Positions 8,900 through 63,127 of a stretch of DNA of 64,000 bases are shown here, piece after piece; positions within the stretch are counted from its first letter, which is position 1; every line of letters starts with the position of its first letter. The notes under the pieces are model-generated. The model was given only the letters and a program-made list of their open reading frames with translations, was not told the origin of the DNA and searched no databases. The position numbers were made by a program, and so were the translations under genes. Origin of the DNA: Methylopila capsulata (GTDB taxonomy: Bacteria; Pseudomonadota; Alphaproteobacteria; Rhizobiales; Methylopilaceae); assembly GCF_016907975.1 (NCBI RefSeq), contig NZ_JAFBCY010000003.1, positions 124,001 through 188,000 on the forward strand, in the 5' to 3' direction.

Positions 8900-8961
8900 G
8901 GAAGCCGCTCCTGAACGCGTGGAGTGGAAGGATTGGCGTCAAGGTAGCGGACCCGGCGTCT

Positions 8962-8986
8962 TTGGATTAGCCTTCACAAGATCCAA
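8962..8986. promoter_or_regulatory. Candidate LysR operator between the MFS and lysR genes
   Basis: A perfect inverted repeat TTGGAT-N13-ATCCAA lies in the 110-nt divergent region, 24 nt before the lysR start. Its size and position fit a LysR-type binding site with autoregulation. The assignment is by pattern only. Confidence 0.5.
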
Positions 8987-9009
8987 CCACCTGTGACGCG
9001 AAGGAATTA

Positions 9010-9942
9010 ATGAGCCGATCCGACGCCAATCGCGCCGCCGAGATGGAGACCTTCGTCCGCGTGGTGGAGCGGGGCGATTTCTCGGCCGCCGCGCGCGAGC
9101 TTCGACAATCGCCGTCCGCCGTCAGCAAGCTGGTCGCCCGGCTCGAGACGCGGCTCGGCGCTCAGCTCATGACCCGCACCACGCGCAAGCTGCTGCTCAC
9201 GGCCGAGGGCGAGGCCTTCTATGACCGTGCGACGCGCATTCTCGCCGACATCGACGAGGCCGAGCGGGAGGCCTCCGGCGGCGCGGTTCCCAAAGGCCGC
9301 GTCCGGGTGAACTGCAGCGTGTCGTTCGGGCAGCTCTACGTGCTGCCGCTGGTGCCGGCGTTCCTCGCCCGCTATCCGGAGGTGACGCTCGACATCGTGC
9401 TGACCGATCAGGTGGTGGATCTGTTGGAGCAACGCGCCGACGTGGCGATCCGCATCGGGTCGCTCGCCTCCTCCCGCCTCGTCGCCCGCAGGCTCGGCGA
9501 GAGCCGTCTGGCGGTCGTCGCCTCGCCGGACCACCTCGCCCGCCACGGGGTCCCGAAGACGCTGGAGGACCTCGAGCGACATCCTCGAATCGGGTTCAAC
9601 TTCACCCGCCGGACGCCCGGCTGGCCGTTCCTCATCGACGGACGGACGGTGACCGTCCCACCCATCGGCCCGGTCCAGGTCGGCGATGGCGAGACCTCGC
9701 GATTGCTGGCGCTCGCGGGCGTCGGCCTCGCCCGCCACGCGCTGTTTCACATCGGGTCCGACATCGCGGCGGGAACGCTTGTGCCGGTGCTCGAGGAGTT
9801 GAACCCCGGCGACACCGAGGAGATCCACGCCGTGTTCGTCGGCCGCCCGGGCCGGCTCCCGGCCCGCACGCGCGCCTTCCTCGATTTTCTGGCTGAGGCC
9901 GCGGGCGAGCTGAACCGCAGCGGCTGGACCACCCCGCCTTGA
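9010..9942 (+). CDS. LysR-family transcriptional regulator
   Basis: This protein has 310 residues. The winged HTH lies at about 10-70 (ETFVRVVERGDFSAAARELR, then SAVSKLVARLETRLGAQLM, ending TRKLLLTAEGEAFY), and the rest is a periplasmic-binding-like effector domain (GRVRVNCSVSFGQLYVLPLV). It belongs to the PA0477/CrgA-like group often found beside MFS exporters. It is divergent from the MFS gene and an inverted repeat lies between them. The effector is unknown. Confidence 0.9.
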   Translation: MSRSDANRAAEMETFVRVVERGDFSAAARELRQSPSAVSKLVARLETRLGAQLMTRTTRKLLLTAEGEAFYDRATRILADIDEAEREASGGAVPKGRVRVNCSVSFGQLYVLPLVPAFLARYPEVTLDIVLTDQVVDLLEQRADVAIRIGSLASSRLVARRLGESRLAVVASPDHLARHGVPKTLEDLERHPRIGFNFTRRTPGWPFLIDGRTVTVPPIGPVQVGDGETSRLLALAGVGLARHALFHIGSDIAAGTLVPVLEELNPGDTEEIHAVFVGRPGRLPARTRAFLDFLAEAAGELNRSGWTTPP

Positions 9943-42457: not shown

Positions 42458-42759
42458 GCGCTGAGCGCCTTGCGACGCTCCTCGGCGGTCGGCAGCGGCG
42501 GCAGCTTGCTGATGATCGTCGGCGTCTCGGCCGACCGAGCCCGGTTGATCTCGATCCAGGAGACCTTGTCGGGCGCCAGAAGATACGACGCCTGGATCGC
42601 GCCGACGGGGCACACCGGAACGCAGCCGCCGCAATCGATGCAGTTGTCGGGATCGATGTACGTCATGGTTTCATCGACGTGGAAGCATTCGACCGGGCAG
42701 ACCGTCACGCACTCCGTGTAACGGCAACCGCAGCAGAGATCGGTCACGACGTAAGCCAT
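42454..42759 (-). CDS. Two-cluster (7Fe or 8Fe) ferredoxin
   Basis: This 101-residue protein holds CCGCRYTECVTVCPVECF near the N-terminus and CIDCGGCVPVCP at about residues 40-51, so it binds two iron-sulfur clusters in the FdxA manner. The C-terminal half (SWIEINRARSAETPTIISKL) is the usual extension of 7Fe ferredoxins. It is translationally coupled to the FprA-like reductase and lies 54 nt after the molybdoenzyme gene. It is probably the electron link between the two. Confidence 0.93.
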   Translation of the reverse strand: MAYVVTDLCCGCRYTECVTVCPVECFHVDETMTYIDPDNCIDCGGCVPVCPVGAIQASYLLAPDKVSWIEINRARSAETPTIISKLPPLPTAEERRKALSA

Positions 42760-53137: not shown

Positions 53138-53881
53138 AGCCTCGTGAGACAGTCCCGCGTCGGTCGTCGCATCGTGCTGAGCGAGGCAGGCGCAGCCTTC
53201 CTCAACGAGGCTCGCGCCGTCTTGGCGCGGGCGGCCGCCGCCGAGGGTGGTCCTCGCCGACATCGCCGGCCTCAAGAAGGGATGGCTGGCGCTTGCGGCG
53301 AGCCAGACCGTCGCAAACTACTGGCTTCTGCCGCTCGTGCATCGATTCACGACCGATTATCCTGGCGTCGTGATCGCGGTCGAGATCGCCAACACCGAGC
53401 GCGTCGCGGCGCTCATACATGACGGCGAGGCCGATATCGGGATCGTTGAAGGCAAGATCGACGACCCTGCGCTCGCCGCCGTCGTGGTGGCGGAAGACGA
53501 GATGAGGCTCGTGGTCGGCAAAGATCATCCGTGGGCGGACGGTCCGCGCGGACGAGTTCAACTCGACGCGATCGGTGTTGCGGAAGCTCGGCTCAGGCAC
53601 ACGGTCCGTGCTGGAAGCGGTCATGAAAACCGTCGACAGCAACCTGTCGGATCTCGACGTCGCGATCGAGTTTTCATCCAACGAAGCGTTGCGCACCGCG
53701 GTCGAAGCAGGCGCAGCGGCGGCTGTCATGTCGCGGCTCGGGGCGGCGTCTTCGCTCCTCTCCGACGCGCTCGTCGAGGTCGCGATGGAGCTCGCGGCGC
53801 CGCTTCACGGCGCTCAGGCACAAGAGCCGTTACGCGACGAAGTCCTCGACCGCCATTCTTGAGACGATCGCGACCAGCTGA
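53138..53881 (+). pseudogene. LysR-family regulator pseudogene
   Basis: Pieces of one LysR protein appear in successive frames: LVRQSRVGRRIVLSEAGAAF (53141-53247, wing of the HTH domain), then the effector domain from about 53247 (KKGWLALAASQTVANYWLLP, EADIGIVEGKIDDPALAAVV), then from about 53575 (GSGTRSVLEAVMKTVDSNLS), and finally FTALRHKSRYATKSSTAI ending at the TGA 53879-53881. At least three frameshifts and the loss of the HTH helices make it non-functional. It begins about 50 nt after the FhuB-like gene. Confidence 0.85.
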
Positions 53882-53884
53882 GGC

Positions 53885-54397
53885 CTAGATCGTCGTCAGA
53901 CCGTGAAACGCCGAGTCGCCGTAGATGAGCGGCGCGCCGTCGCCGGTCTCGGCGTGAAGCACCCTGCCGACGAAGATCGTGTGGGTGCCTTCGTCGTGGC
54001 GGCTTTCCAGCACGCAGTCGAGGCGCGCCGCGCACCCCTCGATCAGCGGACAACCGGTCGCGCCAAGGCGGTGCGGGACCGCGTCGAAGGATTTGCCGTC
54101 GCGGCCCGCGAAATATGTCGCAAGCTCGCTTTGCGTCTCGCTCAGGAAATTGAGCGCGAAAGCCCCTCCGCGCGAGACGACGCCATGCGAGGCGCTCGAC
54201 CGGTTCAGCGCCACGAGCACCAGCGGCGGCTCGGCGCTGACGCTGCAGACCGCGGTCGCGGTCATGCCGTTGACGGTCGCGCCATGGCGGCTGGTCACCA
54301 CGGTGACCCCGGCCGCCAGGCGGCGCATCGCGGCCTTGAAGGCGGCCGGTTCGACGTCCGGCTCGGGCGCTGCGCGCATGACGGCCGCCGCGCTCAC
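53885..54397 (-). CDS. Flavin reductase (NtaB/HpaC-like, FMN-binding split barrel)
   Basis: This 170-residue protein has the DIM6/NTAB fold: FKAAMRRLAAGVTVVTSRHG, GMTATAVCSVSAEPPLVLVA, and FALNFLSETQSELATYFAGR are the FMN-binding segments. GTHTIFVGRVLHAETGDGAP is at the C-terminus. It supplies reduced flavin to the monooxygenase encoded directly upstream, with which it overlaps by 4 nt (ATGA). Confidence 0.93.
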   Translation of the reverse strand: MSAAAVMRAAPEPDVEPAAFKAAMRRLAAGVTVVTSRHGATVNGMTATAVCSVSAEPPLVLVALNRSSASHGVVSRGGAFALNFLSETQSELATYFAGRDGKSFDAVPHRLGATGCPLIEGCAARLDCVLESRHDEGTHTIFVGRVLHAETGDGAPLIYGDSAFHGLTTI

Positions 54398-55725
54398 GGA
54401 CGCGCTCCCGACGTTCCGAGACGCTCGCGCAGCGAACCGGCCCCATAGTCTATGCGGGCCCGGCCGCGCGCCTGGAGGATCGGCACGACCTTGTCGACGA
54501 AGTCATCGAACGTGTCGGGCAGGAAGGCGGGCGAGATGACGAAGCCGTCGGCCGCGCCGGAATCCACGATCGCGATCAACTCGTCCGCGACGTCCTGCGC
54601 GGTGCCGACGAGGCGCGGACACATCACGCCGCGGCCGTAGATCTTGCCGGCGTCCGCGATCGTAATCGAGCTGTCGCCTGCGATCGAGCGCAGCGCCGCA
54701 AGATTGCCCTGGCTGCCGGTGTCGGCGATCTCGTCGATCGTGGCGTCGAGCGGCAGCGCGCCGAAGTCGGCGTTGGCGTGGGCGGCAAGCGTCGACAGGC
54801 CGACGCGCGGGTCGATCAGGCTGTCGTGCAGATCTCGCTTGGCCTCTGCCTCATCGCGCGTCTCGCCGATGAACGGCATTACGGCCATCATGACTTTCGC
54901 GGCGTTGGCCGCGCGGCCGGCGCCTTCGAGCGCGGCGCGCACGTCCTTGGTGAAGGCCGTCATGCGCGTCATGCTCGGCTGCAGCGCGAAGATCACCTCC
55001 GACCAGCGCGCCGCGAAGGCCTTGCCGCGGCCCGACGAGCCGGCCTGGATGATGAGGGGACGTCCTTGCGGGCTGCGCGGGATGTTGAGCGGCCCGCGCG
55101 CCTTGAACCACCGGCCCTTGTGATTGGCGTAATGGACCTTGGACGGGTCGGCGTAGACGCCGCCCGCGCGATCGAGCACCAACGCGTCCGGCTCCCAGCT
55201 GTCCCAGAGCTTGAACGCGACCTCCATGAATTCGTCGGCGCGGTCGTAGCGCTCGTCATGGCTGAGATGCGGCACGTCGCCGAAATTGAGCGCTTCGCCA
55301 TCGTTCATCGAGGTGACGACGTTCCAGGCGGCGCGGCCGCCCGAGATGTGGTCGAGCGTTGCGAATTCTCGCGCGATGTTAAACGGCGCGTCATAGGTCG
55401 TGGAGCGCGTCGCGCCGAGGCCGAGATGGTTCGTCACGGCGGCCATCGCGCCGAGGATCGGCAGCGGGTCCATGCGGGTCGCGTCCTGGTCCCCAAGACG
55501 CAGTCCCATCTCGTGGCTGTCGCCATAGCGATCCGCGATCGCCAGCCGGTCGGCGAAGAACACGAAGTCGAAAAAGCCCCGCTCCAGCGTCTTCGCGATG
55601 CCGGCATAGTGCGCGAGGCTCAGGAACGGCGTCTCGTGCGCTGGGTTACGCCAGATCGCGTGACTGTGGACAACCGGGCCCGCGACGAGAAATCCGCAAA
55701 AATGGATCGGATTTGACTTTGTCAT
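54394..55725 (-). CDS. LLM-class FMNH2-dependent monooxygenase (NtaA/SnaA/DszA family)
   Basis: The ATG at 55725 (AGAGG upstream) gives 443 residues. Features of the NtaA/DszA group: FFDFVFFADRLAIADRYGDS, DPLPILGAMAAVTNHLGLGA, the flavin-site AREFATLDHISGGRAAWNVV, and RGPLNIPRSPQGRPLIIQAG with SSGRGKAFAARWSEVIF. Such enzymes cleave C-S or C-N bonds, or hydroxylate, using FMNH2 from a partner reductase, here the next gene. The compound oxidised is unknown. An AT-rich control region with a LysR-type site lies upstream. Confidence 0.93.
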   Translation of the reverse strand: MTKSNPIHFCGFLVAGPVVHSHAIWRNPAHETPFLSLAHYAGIAKTLERGFFDFVFFADRLAIADRYGDSHEMGLRLGDQDATRMDPLPILGAMAAVTNHLGLGATRSTTYDAPFNIAREFATLDHISGGRAAWNVVTSMNDGEALNFGDVPHLSHDERYDRADEFMEVAFKLWDSWEPDALVLDRAGGVYADPSKVHYANHKGRWFKARGPLNIPRSPQGRPLIIQAGSSGRGKAFAARWSEVIFALQPSMTRMTAFTKDVRAALEGAGRAANAAKVMMAVMPFIGETRDEAEAKRDLHDSLIDPRVGLSTLAAHANADFGALPLDATIDEIADTGSQGNLAALRSIAGDSSITIADAGKIYGRGVMCPRLVGTAQDVADELIAIVDSGAADGFVISPAFLPDTFDDFVDKVVPILQARGRARIDYGAGSLRERLGTSGARP

Positions 55726-55824
55726 GCACGCCTCTTGCAAGCCATGGCTTTTTATTTGATCGATTTTACTTTAGCGCCCGGATCAAGCGACATTCGAAAC
55801 TCTAGTAATTGCCGTATGCAAAAA

Positions 55825-55854
55825 CAAATTTATATTGTTTTGCATAAAGCAAAT
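55825..55854. promoter_or_regulatory. Putative LysR binding site upstream of the monooxygenase operon
   Basis: CAAATTTATATTG, TTTTGCA and AAAGCAAA occur in order over 30 nt; 28 of 30 positions match the site at 61285-61314 before the lysR and liv genes. It contains the dyad TTTGC-N5-GCAAA, and a second half-site TATGCAAAAACAA lies just before it. It is 100 nt upstream of the monooxygenase start in a strongly AT-rich patch (about 55741-55870). The gap 55726-56046 has no gene; its remainder is the repeat at 55935-56021. Confidence 0.7.
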
Positions 55855-55934
55855 ATTTGTTTATGAGGAGGATCGGCGCATAGGCCCGCGCGGCGAGGCC
55901 CGCCACGTGATTTCGGCCGTGGAGACTCCCTCGA

Positions 55935-56021
55935 CCGTCATGCCCGGGCTTGACCCGGGCATCCGTCGTTCCGGCCGCGTCCGCGGCCGATGAATCCTTG
56001 GGTCAGGCCCGAGGATGACGG
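55935..56021. repeat. Intergenic palindromic repeat (family C)
   Basis: CCGTCATG and GGATGACGG mark the edges. Inside, TGCCCGGG-CTTGA-CCCGGGCA is a perfect 8-bp hairpin and GGCCGCGTCCGCGGCC another. The edge and core resemble the elements at 15886 and 29231. It lies between the monooxygenase control region and the end of the liv operon. Confidence 0.75.
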
Positions 56022-56046
56022 CAGAGCTTGAACGGACCGCGGCTCG

Positions 56047-57282
56047 TCAGCTCACCACGCCGAACGGCGTGTTCTTCCCGCCCTTGATGAGCTGCACGTA
56101 GAAGGAGCGGTTCAGCGAGTCGCCTTTCTCGTCGAAGTCGCAGGTGCAGCCGGCGCCGTTGAAATTGATGGACTTGCCCTCGCGGACCATCTTCAGCGCC
56201 TCGACGATGTCGTCGACGGGTTCGCCGGGAGGGTTGCAGACCTCGCGGACCGACTTGGTCCACACCGCCGCCTCCTGCGTCTTGGCGTGCTCCATGGCCA
56301 GCACCGTGACGCAGACCTGATCCCAGGCGTTGCCGGCGAACAGGAACACCGTGCCTTCCGGCGCGCCCATCTCCTTGACGAAGCGGGCGTAGGACGGGCT
56401 GTCGATCGGAGGTGAGGGCTGGAGGTGGTAGATGCCTTCCGCGACCTCCGGGCCGACCGCCTGCAGGAACTTGCCTTCCGCGTCGGCGCCTGTGCCGAGC
56501 GACACGACCTTCGAACTGAAGCCCCCGCGGAAGATCTCCTTGGAGATCGACACCATGTCGGTCAGCAGCGGCAGCACGAACACCGCGTCGGGCTCCGGCC
56601 CGAAGGCCTTCTCGACCTCGGCGCGGTAGGAGGCCTGGTCGGGATTGTACATGACGACGTCGACCACCTCGCCGCCGATCTTCTTCATCTCCGCCTTGAA
56701 CGGCTCGACCATCGCGACGATGAAGGGGTTCTGCTGGGCCAGCACCGTGACCTTTTTGGCTCCGATCTTGTCCATCACCTTGGCGCCGGCCGGGCCCCAC
56801 TGGCTGGACTTGGCCTGAAGCCGGTAGATAAGGCCTTTCGTGTCGCCCTCGGTCACGGCGTTCGCCGCGCAGGACAGCATCTGGACCTTGTTGGCCGCGA
56901 GGATCACGGGTTTGGCCGCAAGCGCCTCGGGGCTGCCCCAGAAGCCGCCCACGAGCTCGACCTTGTTGACCTCGAGCAGCTTCTTCGACGCCGCGACGCT
57001 GACGGTGGCCGACGTCTCGCTATCCTCGATGAAGAGCTTCACCTTGCGGCCGCCGAGAATGCCGCCCGCCTCGTTGACCTTCGCGACGACGAGTTCTGCA
57101 GCCTGCTTCATCGCCGGCCCGTAGGAGCCGGTCGCGCCCGAAAACGGCAGGACCATGCCGAGCGGCACGTCGCCGGCGGCCTCTTGCGCGATGGCCGGCT
57201 TTCCGAGCGCGGCCACGAGCGGAAGCGAGCCGACGCCTGCGAGGACGGTCCGGCGGTTCATCACGAATCTGCTGTCAGTCAT
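56047..57282 (-). CDS. ABC transporter substrate-binding protein, branched-chain amino acid type (LivK-like)
   Basis: The ATG at 57282 follows AAGGA and gives 411 residues. The signal region (MNRRTVLAGVGSLPLVAALG) has a twin-Arg look. The body is a type I periplasmic-binding fold of the Peripla_BP_6 group: VPLGMVLPFSGATGSYGPAM, AAELVVAKVNEAGGILGG, KLFIEDSETSATVSVAASKK. This subfamily takes up amino acids, amides, urea, aromatic acids and other small organics. It is last in the liv operon and downstream of the AhpD-like gene. Confidence 0.92.
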   Translation of the reverse strand: MTDSRFVMNRRTVLAGVGSLPLVAALGKPAIAQEAAGDVPLGMVLPFSGATGSYGPAMKQAAELVVAKVNEAGGILGGRKVKLFIEDSETSATVSVAASKKLLEVNKVELVGGFWGSPEALAAKPVILAANKVQMLSCAANAVTEGDTKGLIYRLQAKSSQWGPAGAKVMDKIGAKKVTVLAQQNPFIVAMVEPFKAEMKKIGGEVVDVVMYNPDQASYRAEVEKAFGPEPDAVFVLPLLTDMVSISKEIFRGGFSSKVVSLGTGADAEGKFLQAVGPEVAEGIYHLQPSPPIDSPSYARFVKEMGAPEGTVFLFAGNAWDQVCVTVLAMEHAKTQEAAVWTKSVREVCNPPGEPVDDIVEALKMVREGKSINFNGAGCTCDFDEKGDSLNRSFYVQLIKGGKNTPFGVVS

Positions 57283-57296
57283 CGGGAGCGTCCTTC

Positions 57297-57860
57297 TCAA
57301 AGTGACGGCGGGCTTGGGAGGTTCATGGCGGCAGCCGCGCGGCCGTCGTCGATCTGAAGGGCGTCGTTGAAGCGATTGAAGAAGCCCGCCAGCGCGATGC
57401 GCAGCGTCAGCTCGACGATCTGGGCCTCTGAAAAGCGCGACGTCAGCCGCTCGAACACGGCGTCGCGGAGGCCCCAGGGGCGGTTGGTCACGAGCGTCGC
57501 GTACTCGACGACCAGCCGATCGGTCTCGTCGAGGCCCGGATGGTCGAGGTTCGGCAGATCTCCGATCGCCTCGGTGGGGACGCCTTCGACGGCGAGCAGC
57601 GGCGCGTGGTGCGCGATGCAGTACGGGCAGGCGTTGAGCTTCGAAACGGTCACGACCGCGAGCTCGACATAGCGCAACGGCAAGTTGGACTGCCGCCGGA
57701 GCTCGATCAGCATGCCGAACAGCCCCTCAAGCGCGGCGGGCACATGCGCCATCACGGCGGCCTGATCGTGGAAATCGGCGTAGCCCGAGGCGAACCGCTC
57801 GTAGAGCTCGGCGAGATGCGGCGGCAGGCTCGAAGAAGGCAGAGGCGTCACGCGGGGCAT
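57297..57860 (-). CDS. AhpD-like carboxymuconolactone decarboxylase family protein
   Basis: This 187-residue all-helical protein has the redox motif CPYCIAHH (Cys-x2-Cys-x2-His) at about residues 80-87, the hallmark of peroxidase-related AhpD/CMD proteins. ELAVVTVSKLNACPYC and DETDRLVVEYATLVTNRP follow the family pattern. It lies between livM and the binding protein in the operon (1-nt overlap with livM). It may detoxify a peroxide or reactive product made by the flavin monooxygenase; that is inference. Confidence 0.88.
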   Translation of the reverse strand: MPRVTPLPSSSLPPHLAELYERFASGYADFHDQAAVMAHVPAALEGLFGMLIELRRQSNLPLRYVELAVVTVSKLNACPYCIAHHAPLLAVEGVPTEAIGDLPNLDHPGLDETDRLVVEYATLVTNRPWGLRDAVFERLTSRFSEAQIVELTLRIALAGFFNRFNDALQIDDGRAAAAMNLPSPPSL

Positions 57861-58780
57861 CAGGCGGCCCTTTCGTCATTGGACAGCAGGTCGGCCGCCC
57901 GCCGCTTCGGCTCCGGGGCGAGGCCCTGCGGCCGCAGGATCAGCAGCAGCACGATCCCCGCCCCGATCAGTCCGAGCCGGAGCGCCGAGAGCTGGACGCC
58001 GTCGATGACGGTCACGAAGTCCTTGAGGAAGCGCGTGCCCTCGAGCAGCGCCATGATTGAGCAGGCGCCGATCAGAAGCCCGAAGTTCGAGCCGCGCCCG
58101 CCGGCGATCACGGCCATGAAGGCGTAGGCGGTCACGATCGGGGTGAACTGGCTGGGGTCGATGTAGGTCAGGTAGAAGGCGTGCAGCGCGCCCGCGATCC
58201 CCATCACGGCGCCGCCGACCGCGAACGCCCTCACTCTCAGCGCGAACACGTTCTTGCCGAGGGCGGCGGTCACCGTCGCGTCGTCGCGGATCGCCCGGAG
58301 CACGCGGCCGAAGGGCGAGCGGGCCATGCATTCGAGCAAGGCGAACACCACCGCGACCAGCGCCAGCGCGAACACGATGAACACCGTGTCTCCGCCGATC
58401 GCCTGCCCAAGCGACGCGAACGGCCGGGGAATGTCGGCGATGCCCAGCGCGCCGCGGGTCAACCAACCCTCGTTCAGGATGACGAGACGCACGACCTCGC
58501 CGAACCCGATCGTGACTATGGCGAGGTAGTTTTCCTCAAGCCGGATCGACAGCAGCGCGAGGCCGGCGCTCAAGATCGCCGACAGCGCGCCGGCGACCAG
58601 CATGGCCGGAAACCAGCCGATCTGCGGGGCGAGCAGCGCGGTGGCGTACGCGCCGATCGCCACGAAGCCGACGACGCCGAAATTGACGAGTCCGGCCTGG
58701 CCCCATTGGAGGTTGAGCGCGAGGCCGACAAGCGCCGCGATGGATACCAGGATCGCGATGGTGACGAGATAAGCGATCAT
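57860..58780 (-). CDS. Branched-chain amino acid type ABC permease (LivM-like)
   Basis: This 306-residue protein has about eight to ten helices, with the LivM hallmarks LQWGQAGLVNFGVVGFVAIG, EENYLAIVTIGFGEVVRLVI, and the EAA-like RSPFGRVLRAIRDDATVTAA. AVIAGGRGSNFGLLIGACSI is also typical. Its C-terminal tail (PKRRAADLLSNDERAA) is cytoplasmic. It overlaps livH by ATGA. Confidence 0.94.
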   Translation of the reverse strand: MIAYLVTIAILVSIAALVGLALNLQWGQAGLVNFGVVGFVAIGAYATALLAPQIGWFPAMLVAGALSAILSAGLALLSIRLEENYLAIVTIGFGEVVRLVILNEGWLTRGALGIADIPRPFASLGQAIGGDTVFIVFALALVAVVFALLECMARSPFGRVLRAIRDDATVTAALGKNVFALRVRAFAVGGAVMGIAGALHAFYLTYIDPSQFTPIVTAYAFMAVIAGGRGSNFGLLIGACSIMALLEGTRFLKDFVTVIDGVQLSALRLGLIGAGIVLLLILRPQGLAPEPKRRAADLLSNDERAA

Positions 58781-59640
58781 TTGCGCGCCGCCTTAGCTCC
58801 GAGAAGCCCGTTCGCCCGGAACAGCAGCAGCGCGAGGATCACCGCGAAGCTGACGACCTGCCGGTAGTTCGTGGGGATGACGAGAGCCGACATCTCCTCG
58901 GCGACGCCAATCGTGAGCGCACCGAGCACGGCGCCGATCGGCGAGCCGAGGCCGCCGAGTATCGCGGCCGCGAAGATCGCGATCTGGTAGTTCCAGCCGA
59001 TCAGCGGATCGATCGAGCGGTCGAGCCCGGCGAGGACGCCGGCAAGCCCCAGCAGCGCCCCGACCAGAACCCATGTGAGGCGAGCGATGGTCCGACGCTC
59101 GACCCCGCGGACGGCCGCGAGCGAGGCGTTGTCCGCGACCGCTCGCATGGCGCGGCCAAGCGGCGTGAAGCGCAGCAGCACGTCGACCGCGACGAGGCAG
59201 ACCACCACGGTGATCGCGATGGTGATCTGCTCCTGATTGATGCGGATCCCCTCCCAGCGGATCGGGCGGGAGAGCGCGACGTCGAAGCCGCGGCTCGCGT
59301 TGCCGAAGAAGAAGCGGCAGACGTTCTCGATCATGAGAGAGACGCCCATCGATGCGACCAGCAGCGTGATCGAGCCGCGCCGACGCAAGCGCTCGAAGGC
59401 GAACTGGTCGGCGAGGAGCCCGGCGCCCGCCACCGTGACGGCTGCGATGGCGGCGGCCGCCGTCATCGGCATGCCGAGCTGGACGTTCGCGACCCACGCC
59501 GCGAAGGAGCCGAGCGTCAGCATCGCCCCGACCGCGAAGTTTGCGAATTTCAGCACGCCGAAGACGAGCGTCAGCGCGAGCGCCGGCAGAGCCAGCAGCA
59601 GGCCGGTGACGAGGCCATTGAAGAAGAGTTGCGCGGCCAT
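58777..59640 (-). CDS. Branched-chain amino acid type ABC permease (LivH-like)
   Basis: This 287-residue integral membrane protein starts MAAQLFFNGLVTGLLLALPA. LVFGVLKFANFAVGAMLTLG, FTPLGRAMRAVADNASLAAV (EAA loop) and AILGGLGSPIGAVLGALTIG are LivH signatures. It forms the translocation pore with the LivM-like protein. It follows livF by 1 nt. Confidence 0.94.
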   Translation of the reverse strand: MAAQLFFNGLVTGLLLALPALALTLVFGVLKFANFAVGAMLTLGSFAAWVANVQLGMPMTAAAAIAAVTVAGAGLLADQFAFERLRRRGSITLLVASMGVSLMIENVCRFFFGNASRGFDVALSRPIRWEGIRINQEQITIAITVVVCLVAVDVLLRFTPLGRAMRAVADNASLAAVRGVERRTIARLTWVLVGALLGLAGVLAGLDRSIDPLIGWNYQIAIFAAAILGGLGSPIGAVLGALTIGVAEEMSALVIPTNYRQVVSFAVILALLLFRANGLLGAKAARK

Positions 59641-59641
59641 C

Positions 59642-60370
59642 TCAGGCGACCTTCGCGAAGAAGAGGTCGCCGAGATCGGCGCCGCGCACCGCCGCGGCGG
59701 TGTCGCGCAGGCTGACCTGCCCCGCGACCAGCACTACCGCCTCGTCGGCGATCTCAAGCGCCGCCGCGACGTTCTGCTCGACGAGCAGCACAGTGACGCC
59801 GGCCGCCCGTACGCGCACGATCGCCTCCATCGTCTGAGCGACGATCTTGGGGCTCAGACCCGCAGAGGGCTCGTCGAGCAGCAGCACTTCGGGGTTGGCC
59901 AGCAGCGCGCTCGCGAAGGCGAGCATCTGGCGCTGGCCGCCTGAAAGATCGCCGGCGCGGGTCTTCAGCCGGGTGGCAAGTTCTGGAAACAGCGCCAGCA
60001 CACGCTCGCGCTGCTCGGGCCCGACGCCTGCGCGGCCGCGCAGGAATTCGGTGGCGAGCTTGAGGTTCTCGCCGATGGTGAGGCTCGGAAAGACGTTCTG
60101 CTCTTGCGGCACATAGGCCATGCCGGCCGCGACGCGTTTGGCGGGCATCTCGGCCGTGACGTCGATCCCGGTGACCGAGACGCGGCCCTGGCGGATGTCG
60201 AGCAGCCCCGCGAGCGTCTTCACGAAGCTCGACTTGCCCGACCCATTCGGGCCGATGACTGCAAGGATGGTTTCAGGCGCCTGGTCGAGCGTGATCCCCC
60301 GCACGATGTCGTCGCCGCGGCCGTAGCCTGCGCGAAGCTCGCTGACGGACAACGCCGGGACCACGCTCAC
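59642..60370 (-). CDS. Branched-chain amino acid type ABC ATPase (LivF-like)
   Basis: The GTG at 60370 overlaps the livG stop as GTGA and gives 242 residues. Walker A is GPNGSGKSSFVKTL, Q-loop region AYVPQEQNVFPSLTIGENL, signature LSGGQRQMLAFASAL, Walker B VLLLDEPSAGLSP, and the switch His is replaced by the usual LivF EQNV. An in-frame extension upstream lies in livG and is not coding. Confidence 0.94.
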   Translation of the reverse strand: MSVVPALSVSELRAGYGRGDDIVRGITLDQAPETILAVIGPNGSGKSSFVKTLAGLLDIRQGRVSVTGIDVTAEMPAKRVAAGMAYVPQEQNVFPSLTIGENLKLATEFLRGRAGVGPEQRERVLALFPELATRLKTRAGDLSGGQRQMLAFASALLANPEVLLLDEPSAGLSPKIVAQTMEAIVRVRAAGVTVLLVEQNVAAALEIADEAVVLVAGQVSLRDTAAAVRGADLGDLFFAKVA

Positions 60371-61137
60371 GCCGCCACCCCGAGATAGGCTTCGACCACG
60401 CGGCGGTCCTTGGAAACCTCCTCGAAGGTCCCGGAGACGAGGCGCTTGCCCTCGGCCATCACGTGGACACGGTCGCAAAGCTCGCCGACGAGATGCATGT
60501 CGTGCTCCACGAGGCCGAACGAGACGCCCTCGGCTTTCAGCTCGCGGATCAGCCGGATCATTTCGATTTTCAGCGGCGGCGCGACGCCAGCGCCCGGCTC
60601 GTCGAGCAGGATGAGCTTTGGCTCGAGCAGCAGAGCGCGGGCGAGATCAAGCAGCTTCTTCTGACCGCCCGAGAGTCCGCCCGAGGGGTGGTCGGCGAGC
60701 CGGAACAGGCCGACGCGGTCGAGCAGAGCCTTGGCCTTCTGGGCGTTGGCGCTCTCTTCCGCCCACCATTTGCGGCGGCCGAAGATGCTGGCGACGACGC
60801 CTTCGCCGGTCTGGAGGCGGGGCGCGACCAACAGGTTCTCGAACACGGTGAGGCTGCCGAGCTCGCGCACGATCTGGAACGTGCGCGCCATGCCGAGCGC
60901 CGGGAAACGATGCGCCGAGACCGCCGTAACGTCCCGGCCCTCGAACAGGACGGATCCCCGGTCGGCGCGAACGAGCCCGGTCATGACGTTGAGCAGCGTG
61001 GACTTGCCGGCGCCGTTCGGGCCGATGAGCCCGGTGACCTGCCCGGCCTCTAAAGCAAGCGAGCAGCCGTCGAGCGCGGCGAGCCCACCGAAGCGCTTGG
61101 CGACGTCGCGGACTTCGAGCAGCGGGCCCGCGGTCAC
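60367..61137 (-). CDS. Branched-chain amino acid type ABC ATPase (LivG-like)
   Basis: The GTG at 61137, with GAGG 8 nt before it, gives 256 residues. A TTG at 61179 is an alternative that adds 14 residues. Walker A GPNGAGKSTLLNVMTGLV, ARTFQIVRELGSLTVFENLL, the signature LSGGQKKLLDLARAL and LILLDEPGAGVAPPLK are as in LivG, and FGLVEHDMHLVGELCDRVHV closes the site. It is the first gene of the operon and is divergent from lysR. Confidence 0.93.
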   Translation of the reverse strand: MTAGPLLEVRDVAKRFGGLAALDGCSLALEAGQVTGLIGPNGAGKSTLLNVMTGLVRADRGSVLFEGRDVTAVSAHRFPALGMARTFQIVRELGSLTVFENLLVAPRLQTGEGVVASIFGRRKWWAEESANAQKAKALLDRVGLFRLADHPSGGLSGGQKKLLDLARALLLEPKLILLDEPGAGVAPPLKIEMIRLIRELKAEGVSFGLVEHDMHLVGELCDRVHVMAEGKRLVSGTFEEVSKDRRVVEAYLGVAA

Positions 61138-61284
61138 GACGCGCGCCTCGCGAGACGCGATCCAGTCACCGCCTGGCAACTGCCCATTCCGCGAGCAAAT
61201 ACTGCTATAACTCTATGCATTAGCCTAATAATTATCCTGTATTATTCGACACTTCCAATCTTATTGATCGAAGATACATCAACG

Positions 61285-61314
61285 CAAATTTATATTGCTT
61301 TGCACAAAGCAAAA
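61285..61314. promoter_or_regulatory. Putative LysR binding site in the lysR-liv divergent region
   Basis: It matches the site at 55825-55854 at 28 of 30 positions (CAAATTTATATTG, CTTTGCA, AAAGCAAA) and contains the dyad TTTGC-N5-GCAAA. It ends 16 nt before the lysR start and lies 148 nt before the livG start, inside an AT-rich region from about 61195 to 61325. Its place fits LysR autoregulation and control of the liv operon. Confidence 0.72.
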
Positions 61315-61329
61315 TAATATTTAGCTTGC

Positions 61330-62253
61330 ATGGCGAGACCCCTCGAAATCTCTCTGCTCCGAACCTTTGTGTTGCTGGTCGAGGAGCGCAGCGTGACGCG
61401 CGTGGCGCGTATGCTGTTCAGGACGCAGCCGGCCATCAGCCTGCAGATCAAGCGGCTCGAAGACGCCGCCGGCCGCCCATTGTTCGAAAGCGACCTCCGG
61501 CATCTGAGGCTGACGCCACAGGGCGAGACTCTGCTGCCTTACGCGCGCGCCGTGCTGAAGATGCACGACGAGGCGCAGATGAAGCTCTCGTCGGAGGAGA
61601 TCGACGGCCGCGTCACGCTCGGATGCCCGGACCTCTACGCCGCCTATCTGCTGCCCGAGACGCTTGCGAGCTTCCGCCGCGCCTATCCGCGCGTCGAGGT
61701 CTCGGTGCGCTGCTCGTTGTCGCGGCAGATCGCAGCCGACATGGACGCAGGCCTGGTGGATGTGGCGATCGCGACCCGCATGCCGGGCGTCGGACCGAAG
61801 ACCGGCGACGCCGCACGGCTGCGTTCGGAACGGCTGGTCTGGCTCGGCGCGGTAAACGGCGAGGCGCACCGCCGCTCTCCCGTGCCGCTCGCCATGCTGC
61901 CCGAGGGCAACCTCTACCGCGACGTCGCGCTCGCGGCTCTGAACGAGGCGGGCGTCGGCTGGCGCATCGCCTGCGTGTCGGAAAGCATCGCGGGACTTCA
62001 GGCGATGGCGCTGGCGGACGCGGCCGTGATCGTCCTGTCGGCTTCGGTCCACGTCAACGGCCTCGAGCGGTTGCCGCCTGACTCCGGACTCCCCGAACTG
62101 CCGGAGGTCGACATCATGCTCTGGCGGCGAATGCAGGGACTGTCCCAGGCCGCCGAACACTTCGCTCGCCACATCGAGCTCGGGGTTTCAGGCGCGGCCG
62201 CCGACGACCGCCAAGACGAGGATGAGACCGCCCGCAGCCCAGCCGCCGAATAG
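61330..62253 (+). CDS. LysR-family transcriptional regulator
   Basis: This 307-residue protein has an N-terminal winged HTH (LLRTFVLLVEERSVTRVARM, then RTQPAISLQIKRLEDAAGRP, HLRLTPQGETLLPYARA) and an effector domain (DGRVTLGCPDLYAAYLLPET, RIACVSESIAGLQAMALADA). It resembles the group regulating transport and catabolic genes. It is divergent from the liv operon. The shared 30-bp sites suggest that it controls both the liv and the monooxygenase operons. It is convergent with the EamA gene. Confidence 0.93.
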   Translation: MARPLEISLLRTFVLLVEERSVTRVARMLFRTQPAISLQIKRLEDAAGRPLFESDLRHLRLTPQGETLLPYARAVLKMHDEAQMKLSSEEIDGRVTLGCPDLYAAYLLPETLASFRRAYPRVEVSVRCSLSRQIAADMDAGLVDVAIATRMPGVGPKTGDAARLRSERLVWLGAVNGEAHRRSPVPLAMLPEGNLYRDVALAALNEAGVGWRIACVSESIAGLQAMALADAAVIVLSASVHVNGLERLPPDSGLPELPEVDIMLWRRMQGLSQAAEHFARHIELGVSGAAADDRQDEDETARSPAAE

Positions 62254-62254
62254 G

Positions 62255-63127
62255 TCAGGCGGACTTCGCTCTCCGGACGATCACGAGCGCTACGCCCGTC
62301 AGCGTCAGAGCCAGCGCCACGAGATCCTGCACGGTGAGCGCGACGCCGAGGATCGGCGCAGAAGCTAGCACGCCGACGATCGGCGCCAGCAGCGACCCTG
62401 TGGTCGCGACGATCGGGGGCAGACGCCGCACCGCGCCGAACCATGCGAGATAGCAGAGCCCCATCGGCACCGTCGCCATATAGGCCCAGGCCACGAAGCC
62501 GAGGCCGGAGAGGCGGGCGGGATGCGGCTGCTCGAAGGCGAGGCTTAAGCCGACCATCGGGACCGAGCCAAGCAGCACCTGCCATGCGGTCGACACGACG
62601 GGCAGCATCGGCCGTGTCTCGCTCGCGGCCACCGTGCCGAGCGCGAACAGGACAGCGGCCGCGAGGGACAGCAGGATGCCGGGAAGCTTGTCGCCGGACA
62701 GCGTCGCGACGCTGTCCGAGAACAGCACCAGCGTCCCGGCGAAACAGAGGCCAAGCGCCATGATCGCCCGCGCGCCCGGCCGAGCGCCACGGATTGGCCA
62801 GGCGATGAGCGTCGCCCAGAGCGGCATCGTGTAGACCAGCAGCGCGCCTTCGCCCGGCGTCAGCCAGAGCAGCGCGATGGCCGAAAAACCCATGAAGGCG
62901 AAGACGTTGGTGAAGGAGAGGACGATCAGCTTGCCCCAGGAGCCTGCGGGCACGCCGAGCCGGTCGCGCTTCAGCGCCGCATAGGCGAAGAGGGCCGCGG
63001 CCGCCAACAGGCCGGCGGAGCCACGAGAGAACAGCGGCGGCCAGTCGCGCAGAAGCAGCTTGATGATCGGCCAGTTGAGGCCCCAGCCGATCGCCGCGAA
63101 CAGCAGGCAGCCGATCCCTGCGCGCAT
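62255..63127 (-). CDS. EamA/DMT family transporter
   Basis: The ATG at 63127 with an AGGCG site gives 290 residues; an ATG at 63205 inside the neighbouring gene would add a hydrophilic leader and is less likely. It has about ten helices in two EamA repeats (LLFAAIGWGLNWPIIKLLLR, and LLSLAAAVLFALGTVAASET). It is probably an exporter or importer of a small metabolite; the substrate is unknown. It follows the enoyl-CoA hydratase gene on the same strand. Confidence 0.9.
   Translation of the reverse strand: MRAGIGCLLFAAIGWGLNWPIIKLLLRDWPPLFSRGSAGLLAAAALFAYAALKRDRLGVPAGSWGKLIVLSFTNVFAFMGFSAIALLWLTPGEGALLVYTMPLWATLIAWPIRGARPGARAIMALGLCFAGTLVLFSDSVATLSGDKLPGILLSLAAAVLFALGTVAASETRPMLPVVSTAWQVLLGSVPMVGLSLAFEQPHPARLSGLGFVAWAYMATVPMGLCYLAWFGAVRRLPPIVATTGSLLAPIVGVLASAPILGVALTVQDLVALALTLTGVALVIVRRAKSA

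Follow-up and report, generated by a model that had tools for sequence, protein, structure and literature searches.

A probable LysR regulon with two near-identical operators joining a Liv-type uptake system to a flavin-dependent monooxygenase in Methylopila capsulata

The DNA considered here, hereafter the window, is a 64,000-nucleotide stretch of Methylopila capsulata contig NZ_JAFBCY010000003.1 (positions 124,001 to 188,000 of the forward strand). Within it, positions 53885-62253 carry a plus-strand lysR gene, divergent from minus-strand genes for two ATPases (livG, livF) and two permeases (livH, livM) of an ATP-binding cassette (ABC) transporter, a carboxymuconolactone decarboxylase (CMD)/AhpD-like protein, a binding protein, a monooxygenase and a flavin reductase. 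Two short blocks of nearly the same sequence, named here site A and site B, precede livG and the monooxygenase gene, respectively. Judging from comparisons of sequence, it is very probable that the cluster forms a local regulon in which a single LysR protein acts through these two near-identical operators on both the uptake system and the monooxygenase. The genes and sites are the following.

61330-62253, plus strand: lysR, LysR-type regulator of 307 residues, with HTH_1 and LysR_substrate domains above the Pfam gathering scores
61285-61314, minus strand: site A, putative operator between lysR and the liv operon, matching site B at 27 of 30 bases and kept in the 12 loci aligned
61300-61312, no strand assigned: LysR box of site A, TTGC-N5-GCAA (T-N11-A), read from the sequence
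60367-61137, minus strand: livG-like ATPase, GTG start at 61137 assumed (Pfam ABC_tran, BCA_ABC_TP_C)
59642-60361, minus strand: livF-like ATPase, GTG start at 60361 assumed (Pfam ABC_tran)
58777-59640, minus strand: livH-like permease (Pfam BPD_transp_2)
57860-58780, minus strand: livM-like permease (Pfam BPD_transp_2)
57297-57860, minus strand: CMD/AhpD-like protein (Pfam CMD)
56047-57300, minus strand: periplasmic substrate-binding protein of the transporter (Pfam Peripla_BP_6)
55937-56021, no strand assigned: palindromic repeat with a strong predicted fold, in the gap from the transporter operon to site B
55825-55854, minus strand: site B, putative second operator, before the monooxygenase gene, found in 7 of the 12 aligned loci
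55840-55852, no strand assigned: LysR box of site B, TTGC-N5-GCAA (T-N11-A), read from the sequence
54394-55725, minus strand: DszA/BdsA-like monooxygenase dependent on flavin mononucleotide (FMN) (TIGR03860, 501.3 bits against a cut-off of 279.7; 49.7% identity to BdsA)
53885-54397, minus strand: flavin reductase (Pfam Flavin_Reduct), overlapping the monooxygenase gene by 4 nt

The initial annotation had singled out two AT-rich patches (55741-55870 and 61195-61325), and these do contain the 130-bp stretches that rank first and second in AT content within the window (71% and 67% AT), where the next reaches 51% and the window as a whole has 69% G+C. It had also described a 30-bp block shared between 55825-55854 and 61285-61314 with two mismatches; the positions hold and the mismatch count is right for the first 29 bases, but the last base is a third mismatch (T/A), leaving 27 of 30 bases identical. 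The dyad TTTGC-N5-GCAAA is present in both blocks as described (55839-55853 and 61299-61313). In 60 trials with first-order Markov versions of the patches, the agreement between 30-mers never exceeded 21. Site B begins 100 nt before the ATG of the monooxygenase gene (55725), and site A, which begins 45 nt before the ATG of lysR (61330), lies between this gene and the liv operon; as the initial annotation had it, the two blocks are oriented alike with respect to the two minus-strand operons. The latter are neighbours on the same strand, separated by a gap of 321 bp between the end of the transporter operon (56047) and the monooxygenase start.

The distribution of the block among genomes was followed with the 26-mer CAAATTTATATTGYTTTGCANAAAGC, allowing up to 3 mismatches and taking the backwards pattern as control. 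In the 4.1-Mb genome of origin the 26-mer has two matches, sites A and B alone, and the control has none; the number expected from an independent-base model is about 4e-6 for this genome size and composition, and would be 0.012 for a genome with 68% AT throughout. The 26-mer is present in 7 of 18 genomes of the family and in 7 of 397 of the order, with 12 matches in total, all of them situated either 44-46 bp before a lysR start or 99-100 bp before a monooxygenase start. LysR occurs at 77-100% identity in the same 7 of 397 genomes and, beyond those, at no more than 48% among the matches listed at E 1e-50, while the monooxygenase, searched for in the family genomes, is found at 85-100% in the same 7 of 18 and at best at 45% elsewhere. 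The question raised in the initial annotation, whether the pattern occurs only before these genes, thus has a positive answer for the genome of origin, and within the order the pattern is confined to the genomes whose LysR is at least 77% identical. A whole-genome search of 11 named genomes gave one or two matches in 10, all at site A or B, and none at 3 mismatches in the eleventh, Aquabacter, where site A has 4; having identical coordinates, 6 of the 11 are apparently the same assemblies as family genomes and hence cannot be counted as independent of the 7. A shorter core of 19 bases, allowed up to 3 mismatches, matched only sites A and B and the reverse reading of A in the genome of origin, with 2 matches for the backwards control, so that further targets were not found at that stringency, at which three other monooxygenases of the same family in this genome (38-39% identity) also lack a site.

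Relatives of the cluster were drawn from 79 loci (the best 80 of 94 relatives kept). The cluster is whole or partial by tblastn in 13 of these (L003-L014 and L017), and the other 66, which show nothing comparable, were left unaligned. Site A counts refer to 12 loci, namely the window together with L003-L011, L013 and L014; L012 and L017 were excluded for their degenerate sites and for a lysR lying more than 1.2 kb from livG. The contig of L012 ends within the binding-protein gene, and in L017 lysR contains a run of unknown bases and no match to the monooxygenase was obtained by tblastn. In an ungapped alignment of the 12 loci, mean column identity is 0.94 in the site A block, 0.49-0.57 in its left flank and 0.78 in the next 16 bases toward lysR, conservation reaching about position 61326. 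In the 7 loci having site B, it is 0.94 in the block, 0.69-0.75 in the left flank and 0.92 over the 16 bases that follow on its far side (to about the base equivalent to 55866), beyond which it falls to 0.59. Since conservation runs past the block edge at both sites, the operator is probably about 45 bp long, longer than the 30-bp block. The distance from the block to the lysR ATG is 44-49 bp in all 12 loci. At block position 14 (after TATATTG, or TATTGTG in L011) the 12 A sites have C, and the 7 B sites T or, once, G; this kept difference might set unequal affinities for the two sites.

Two near-identical AT-rich blocks in a GC-rich genome, with a palindromic repeat close to one of them, could also be taken for the ends of a repeat or mobile element having no regulatory role. 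We find this hardly credible in view of the number of copies, at most two per genome at the searched stringency and all in promoter positions, and of the near-fixed spacing that, in relatives that have diverged, separates the blocks from start codons and from -10-like hexamers. One arm of the palindromic repeat itself has, at up to 3 mismatches, 5 copies in the genome including its own; at the corresponding place, long hairpins are predicted for L003, L006 and L014 but none for L004, L005 and L007.

The product of lysR has the two domains expected of a LysR-type transcriptional regulator (LTTR), an N-terminal helix-turn-helix (HTH) scoring 65 bits (cut-off 26.6) and a C-terminal LysR_substrate domain scoring 93 bits (cut-off 28). 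Its best sequence match in the PDB is LrhA, all 11 relatives keep its frame open over 288-314 residues, and conservation is good in its HTH region. The T-N11-A dyad of LTTR operators is present at both sites as TTGC-N5-GCAA; LysR regulators are described in PMC8407307 as usually covering about 50 to 60 bp with such a box. That the LysR encoded at 61330 binds both sites, as the initial annotation proposed from position, gains support from the comparison across genomes. LysR-like genes are numerous in these genomes (the genome of origin has 44 first-look candidates, of which 5 were scored), and a LysR fragment at about 53140-53860 stands beside the monooxygenase operon, so one could imagine that a different regulator binds both sites. 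We consider this quite unlikely: the site follows the LysR of 61330 across genomes and contexts, at 44-49 bp before its ATG in all 12 loci, only one match at E 1e-50 or better was seen among the scored candidates of this genome, and the fragment has no HTH match in its listed frame. As its domain match also spans only half of the profile, the fragment looks like a remnant. It encodes part of an effector domain on the plus strand and adjoins the flavin reductase gene, and a similar stretch is seen in L014 at 282-1020.

Hexamers of the form TANNNT stand at a nearly fixed offset from the block edge, namely at 27 in 10 of the 12 A sites (at 26-27 in 11, L010 being the exception) and at 26 in 6 of the 7 B sites (at 26-27 in all 7). 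Since such a -10-like hexamer lies 26-27 nt beyond the edge in most loci and at both sites, the block edge may itself act as a -35 element. On the lysR side, the far part of site A contains a TAATAT-like hexamer (TANNNT), at the window's position or shifted by one base, in 9 of the 12 loci, and all 7 B sites lack it, which suggests that site A serves lysR too and that site B does not. The predicted promoter elements are the following.

61258-61287, minus strand: predicted liv promoter, -35 TTGCGT (61287-61282), 18-bp spacer, -10 TAAGAT (61263-61258), start near 61251
55799-55827, minus strand: predicted monooxygenase promoter, -35 TTGTTT (55827-55822), 17-bp spacer, -10 TAGAGT (55804-55799), start near 55792
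61315-61320, plus strand: predicted -10 of lysR, TAATAT, just past the block and inside the extended operator

One may picture the control of the cluster as follows. The LysR of 61330 would bind an operator of about 45 bp with the core TTGC-N5-GCAA. Site A would mediate repression of lysR by its own product, since on one side the operator overlaps the predicted lysR promoter, whose mRNA would be nearly leaderless if the predicted -10 is right, and activation of the transporter operon (livGFHM, the CMD gene and the binding-protein gene) by effector-bound LysR, since on the other side the operator touches its -35 region. Site B, at a nearly equal distance from a -10 box, would in the same manner serve activation of the FMN-dependent monooxygenase and the flavin reductase. 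The compound taken up, or its product, is the probable effector. This arrangement resembles that of LTTRs with a divergent target, as described in PMC8407307 and PMC5002191, in its HTH and effector domains, its putative operator of about 45 bp and its T-N11-A core, and in that the far end of the operator would lie over the predicted promoter of the regulator and its near end at the predicted -35 of the target; it differs from them in having a second full operator inside the target cluster. GcvA and MetR, as described in PMC5002191, offer a precedent for one LysR with a divergent target and a further target provided with its own site; unlike theirs, the further target here is the next downstream operon, and its site was apparently gained once within a clade.

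The transporter is akin to the Liv/urea-type (HAAT) ABC transporters, with two ATPases, two permeases and one binding protein of that family. It departs from them in its scores, which miss the curated Liv cut-offs for LivG (217 against 362 bits), LivF (152 against 441), LivH (112.5 against 379) and LivM (139 against 366, subfamily model); among the matches listed (the best 25 of 186 for each ATPase), every Liv and Urt match falls below the NCBI cut-off. Deducing the substrate from the binding protein was attempted and abandoned, as its PDB sequence matches are scattered over receptors for branched-chain amino acids, urea and other extracellular ligands. With tblastn, the CMD gene finds no match in L009 (Hansschlegelia plantiphila) and L011 and L013 show none for the flavin reductase gene, which suggests that either gene can be dispensed with or replaced.

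The monooxygenase scores above the curated cut-off of TIGR03860 (NtaA/DmoA FMN-dependent monooxygenases), and its best solved relative is BdsA (E 5e-140), a dibenzothiophene sulfone monooxygenase of the BdsA/DszA type (PDB 5tlc; PMC5819316), with which it shares 49.7% identity over 437 residues and 11 of the 13 residues in contact with FMN and substrate, Ser139 and His316 among them; the two departures are L230S and V248L. Its neighbours (a liv-type transporter, a CMD protein and a flavin reductase) are not those of the dszABC operon, and none of the ten window proteins scanned resembles DszB or DszC, a search that did not extend to the rest of the genome. The opening of sulfolane has been proposed for a DszA homolog (PMC6395730). 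In L017, a TauD-family dioxygenase gene (8912-9910) stands between livG and lysR, at the head of the transporter operon, and leans toward an organosulphur use; a degenerate-looking operator (judged by eye) remains beside lysR. From the likeness to BdsA, our best guess, tentative and rather less than an even bet, is a cyclic or aryl sulfone used for sulphur, the C-S bond of which the enzyme would open.

Several points weigh against the regulon as pictured here. The -10 hexamers TAAGAT and TAGAGT are weak, a consensus scan lists neither the predicted liv promoter nor that of the monooxygenase, and the same scan gives a possible alternative liv promoter, TTGGAA-16-GATAAT, at 61258-61231. None of 2000 shuffles matched the offset counts for TANNNT, yet shuffles disregard the kinship of the sequences and these zero counts overstate the support. 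The centre of the box would lie near -55 of the predicted start, nearer than the usual -65 of LTTRs with a divergent target (PMC8407307 and PMC5002191). Sites weaken with distance, that of L010 having 4 mismatches and those of L012 and L017 no ungapped match within 8, and the scored share of LysR candidates (5 of 44) belongs to the same account. The substrate is a guess from the likeness of one enzyme, and the AlphaFold model of the binding protein is poor (mean predicted local distance difference test 65.7).

The 12 loci also bear on how the second operator arose. Five of them lack site B between the binding protein and the monooxygenase, where the best ungapped match has 10-14 mismatches, and there the gap between the two genes is 82-181 bp, as against 203-321 bp in the two-site loci; from the missing site and the short gap, the cluster is probably one operon in these five. 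The proposal of the initial annotation that two operons are tied into one regulon is supported by the comparison as regards the shared control, but the operons are neighbours in a single cluster and probably a single operon in 5 of 12 loci. One could then suppose that site A alone is functional, site B being a decayed or neutral copy and the enzyme being expressed by read-through from the transporter genes, as its closeness to them in these five loci would allow. We judge this unlikely, for the conservation of site B equals that of site A in the block and extends over its 16 far-side bases before falling off, a -10-like hexamer stands at a near-fixed position from it, and in the window a strong predicted hairpin lies upstream of it.

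Returning to site B as a working second operator, when seven proteins of the cluster are concatenated, the resulting tree (14 rows) unites the 7 two-site loci in a single clade with support of 98/97, and this clade is nested within the 5 one-site loci, so by parsimony a single gain of site B suffices. The simplest history would be one operon with one operator, followed by the gain of a second operator-promoter before the enzyme. In all 7 loci, the 100 bp to the left of A and of B resemble each other no more than shuffled sequences do (P 0.28-0.69); copying of A to B is nevertheless likely, ahead of convergence, being favoured by the identity of the blocks (25-28 of 29 bases). The cluster of the window has 89.6% DNA identity to that of Methylobacterium sp. 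Leaf91 over 53885-62290, and for the query 40001-64000 the sole other match to the Leaf91 locus is 165 bp at 42595-42759. In the tree, two Methylobacterium copies group with the window (100/99), adjoining two Methylopila copies (91/96). From this cluster-wide identity and this grouping, it seems that the cluster was transferred whole between lineages, with its regulator and both sites. DNA similarity to L003, L004 and L006 (two Methylobacterium genomes and Methylopila turkensis) ends near both cluster edges, as it would had the cluster been inserted in one piece. A plasmid origin was considered and set aside, as relatives of the monooxygenase at E 1e-100 turn up in only 3 plasmid records, none reaching 60% identity. 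It is tempting, if tentative, to see in the whole a self-contained, horizontally moving module for the import and opening of a cyclic or aryl sulfone. In one clade its operator-promoter unit would have been copied once into mid-operon, which would give the oxidising enzyme a separate dose of the same regulator, and the sites would afterwards have specialised, site A being two-faced, with lysR also in its charge, and site B one-faced, without the lysR -10.

We recognised no published description of this LysR regulon in the literature covered, which is weak evidence, as most subscription papers lie outside that coverage. The analysis names a regulator, a predicted operator and likely targets for an apparently uncharacterised uptake-and-oxidation module carried by Methylopila, Hansschlegelia, Methylobacterium and other Alphaproteobacteria, and the inducer, once found, would also point to the substrate of the DszA-like enzyme. 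The control logic would be of the well-known LysR kind, and the greatest interest lies in the second operator inside the operon, apparently gained just once. Taken together, the 12 aligned loci run naturally from one operator to two, a series in which an internal promoter governed by the same regulator would have been gained, and these relatives suggest how an enzyme within an operon may have acquired its own copy of the switch.

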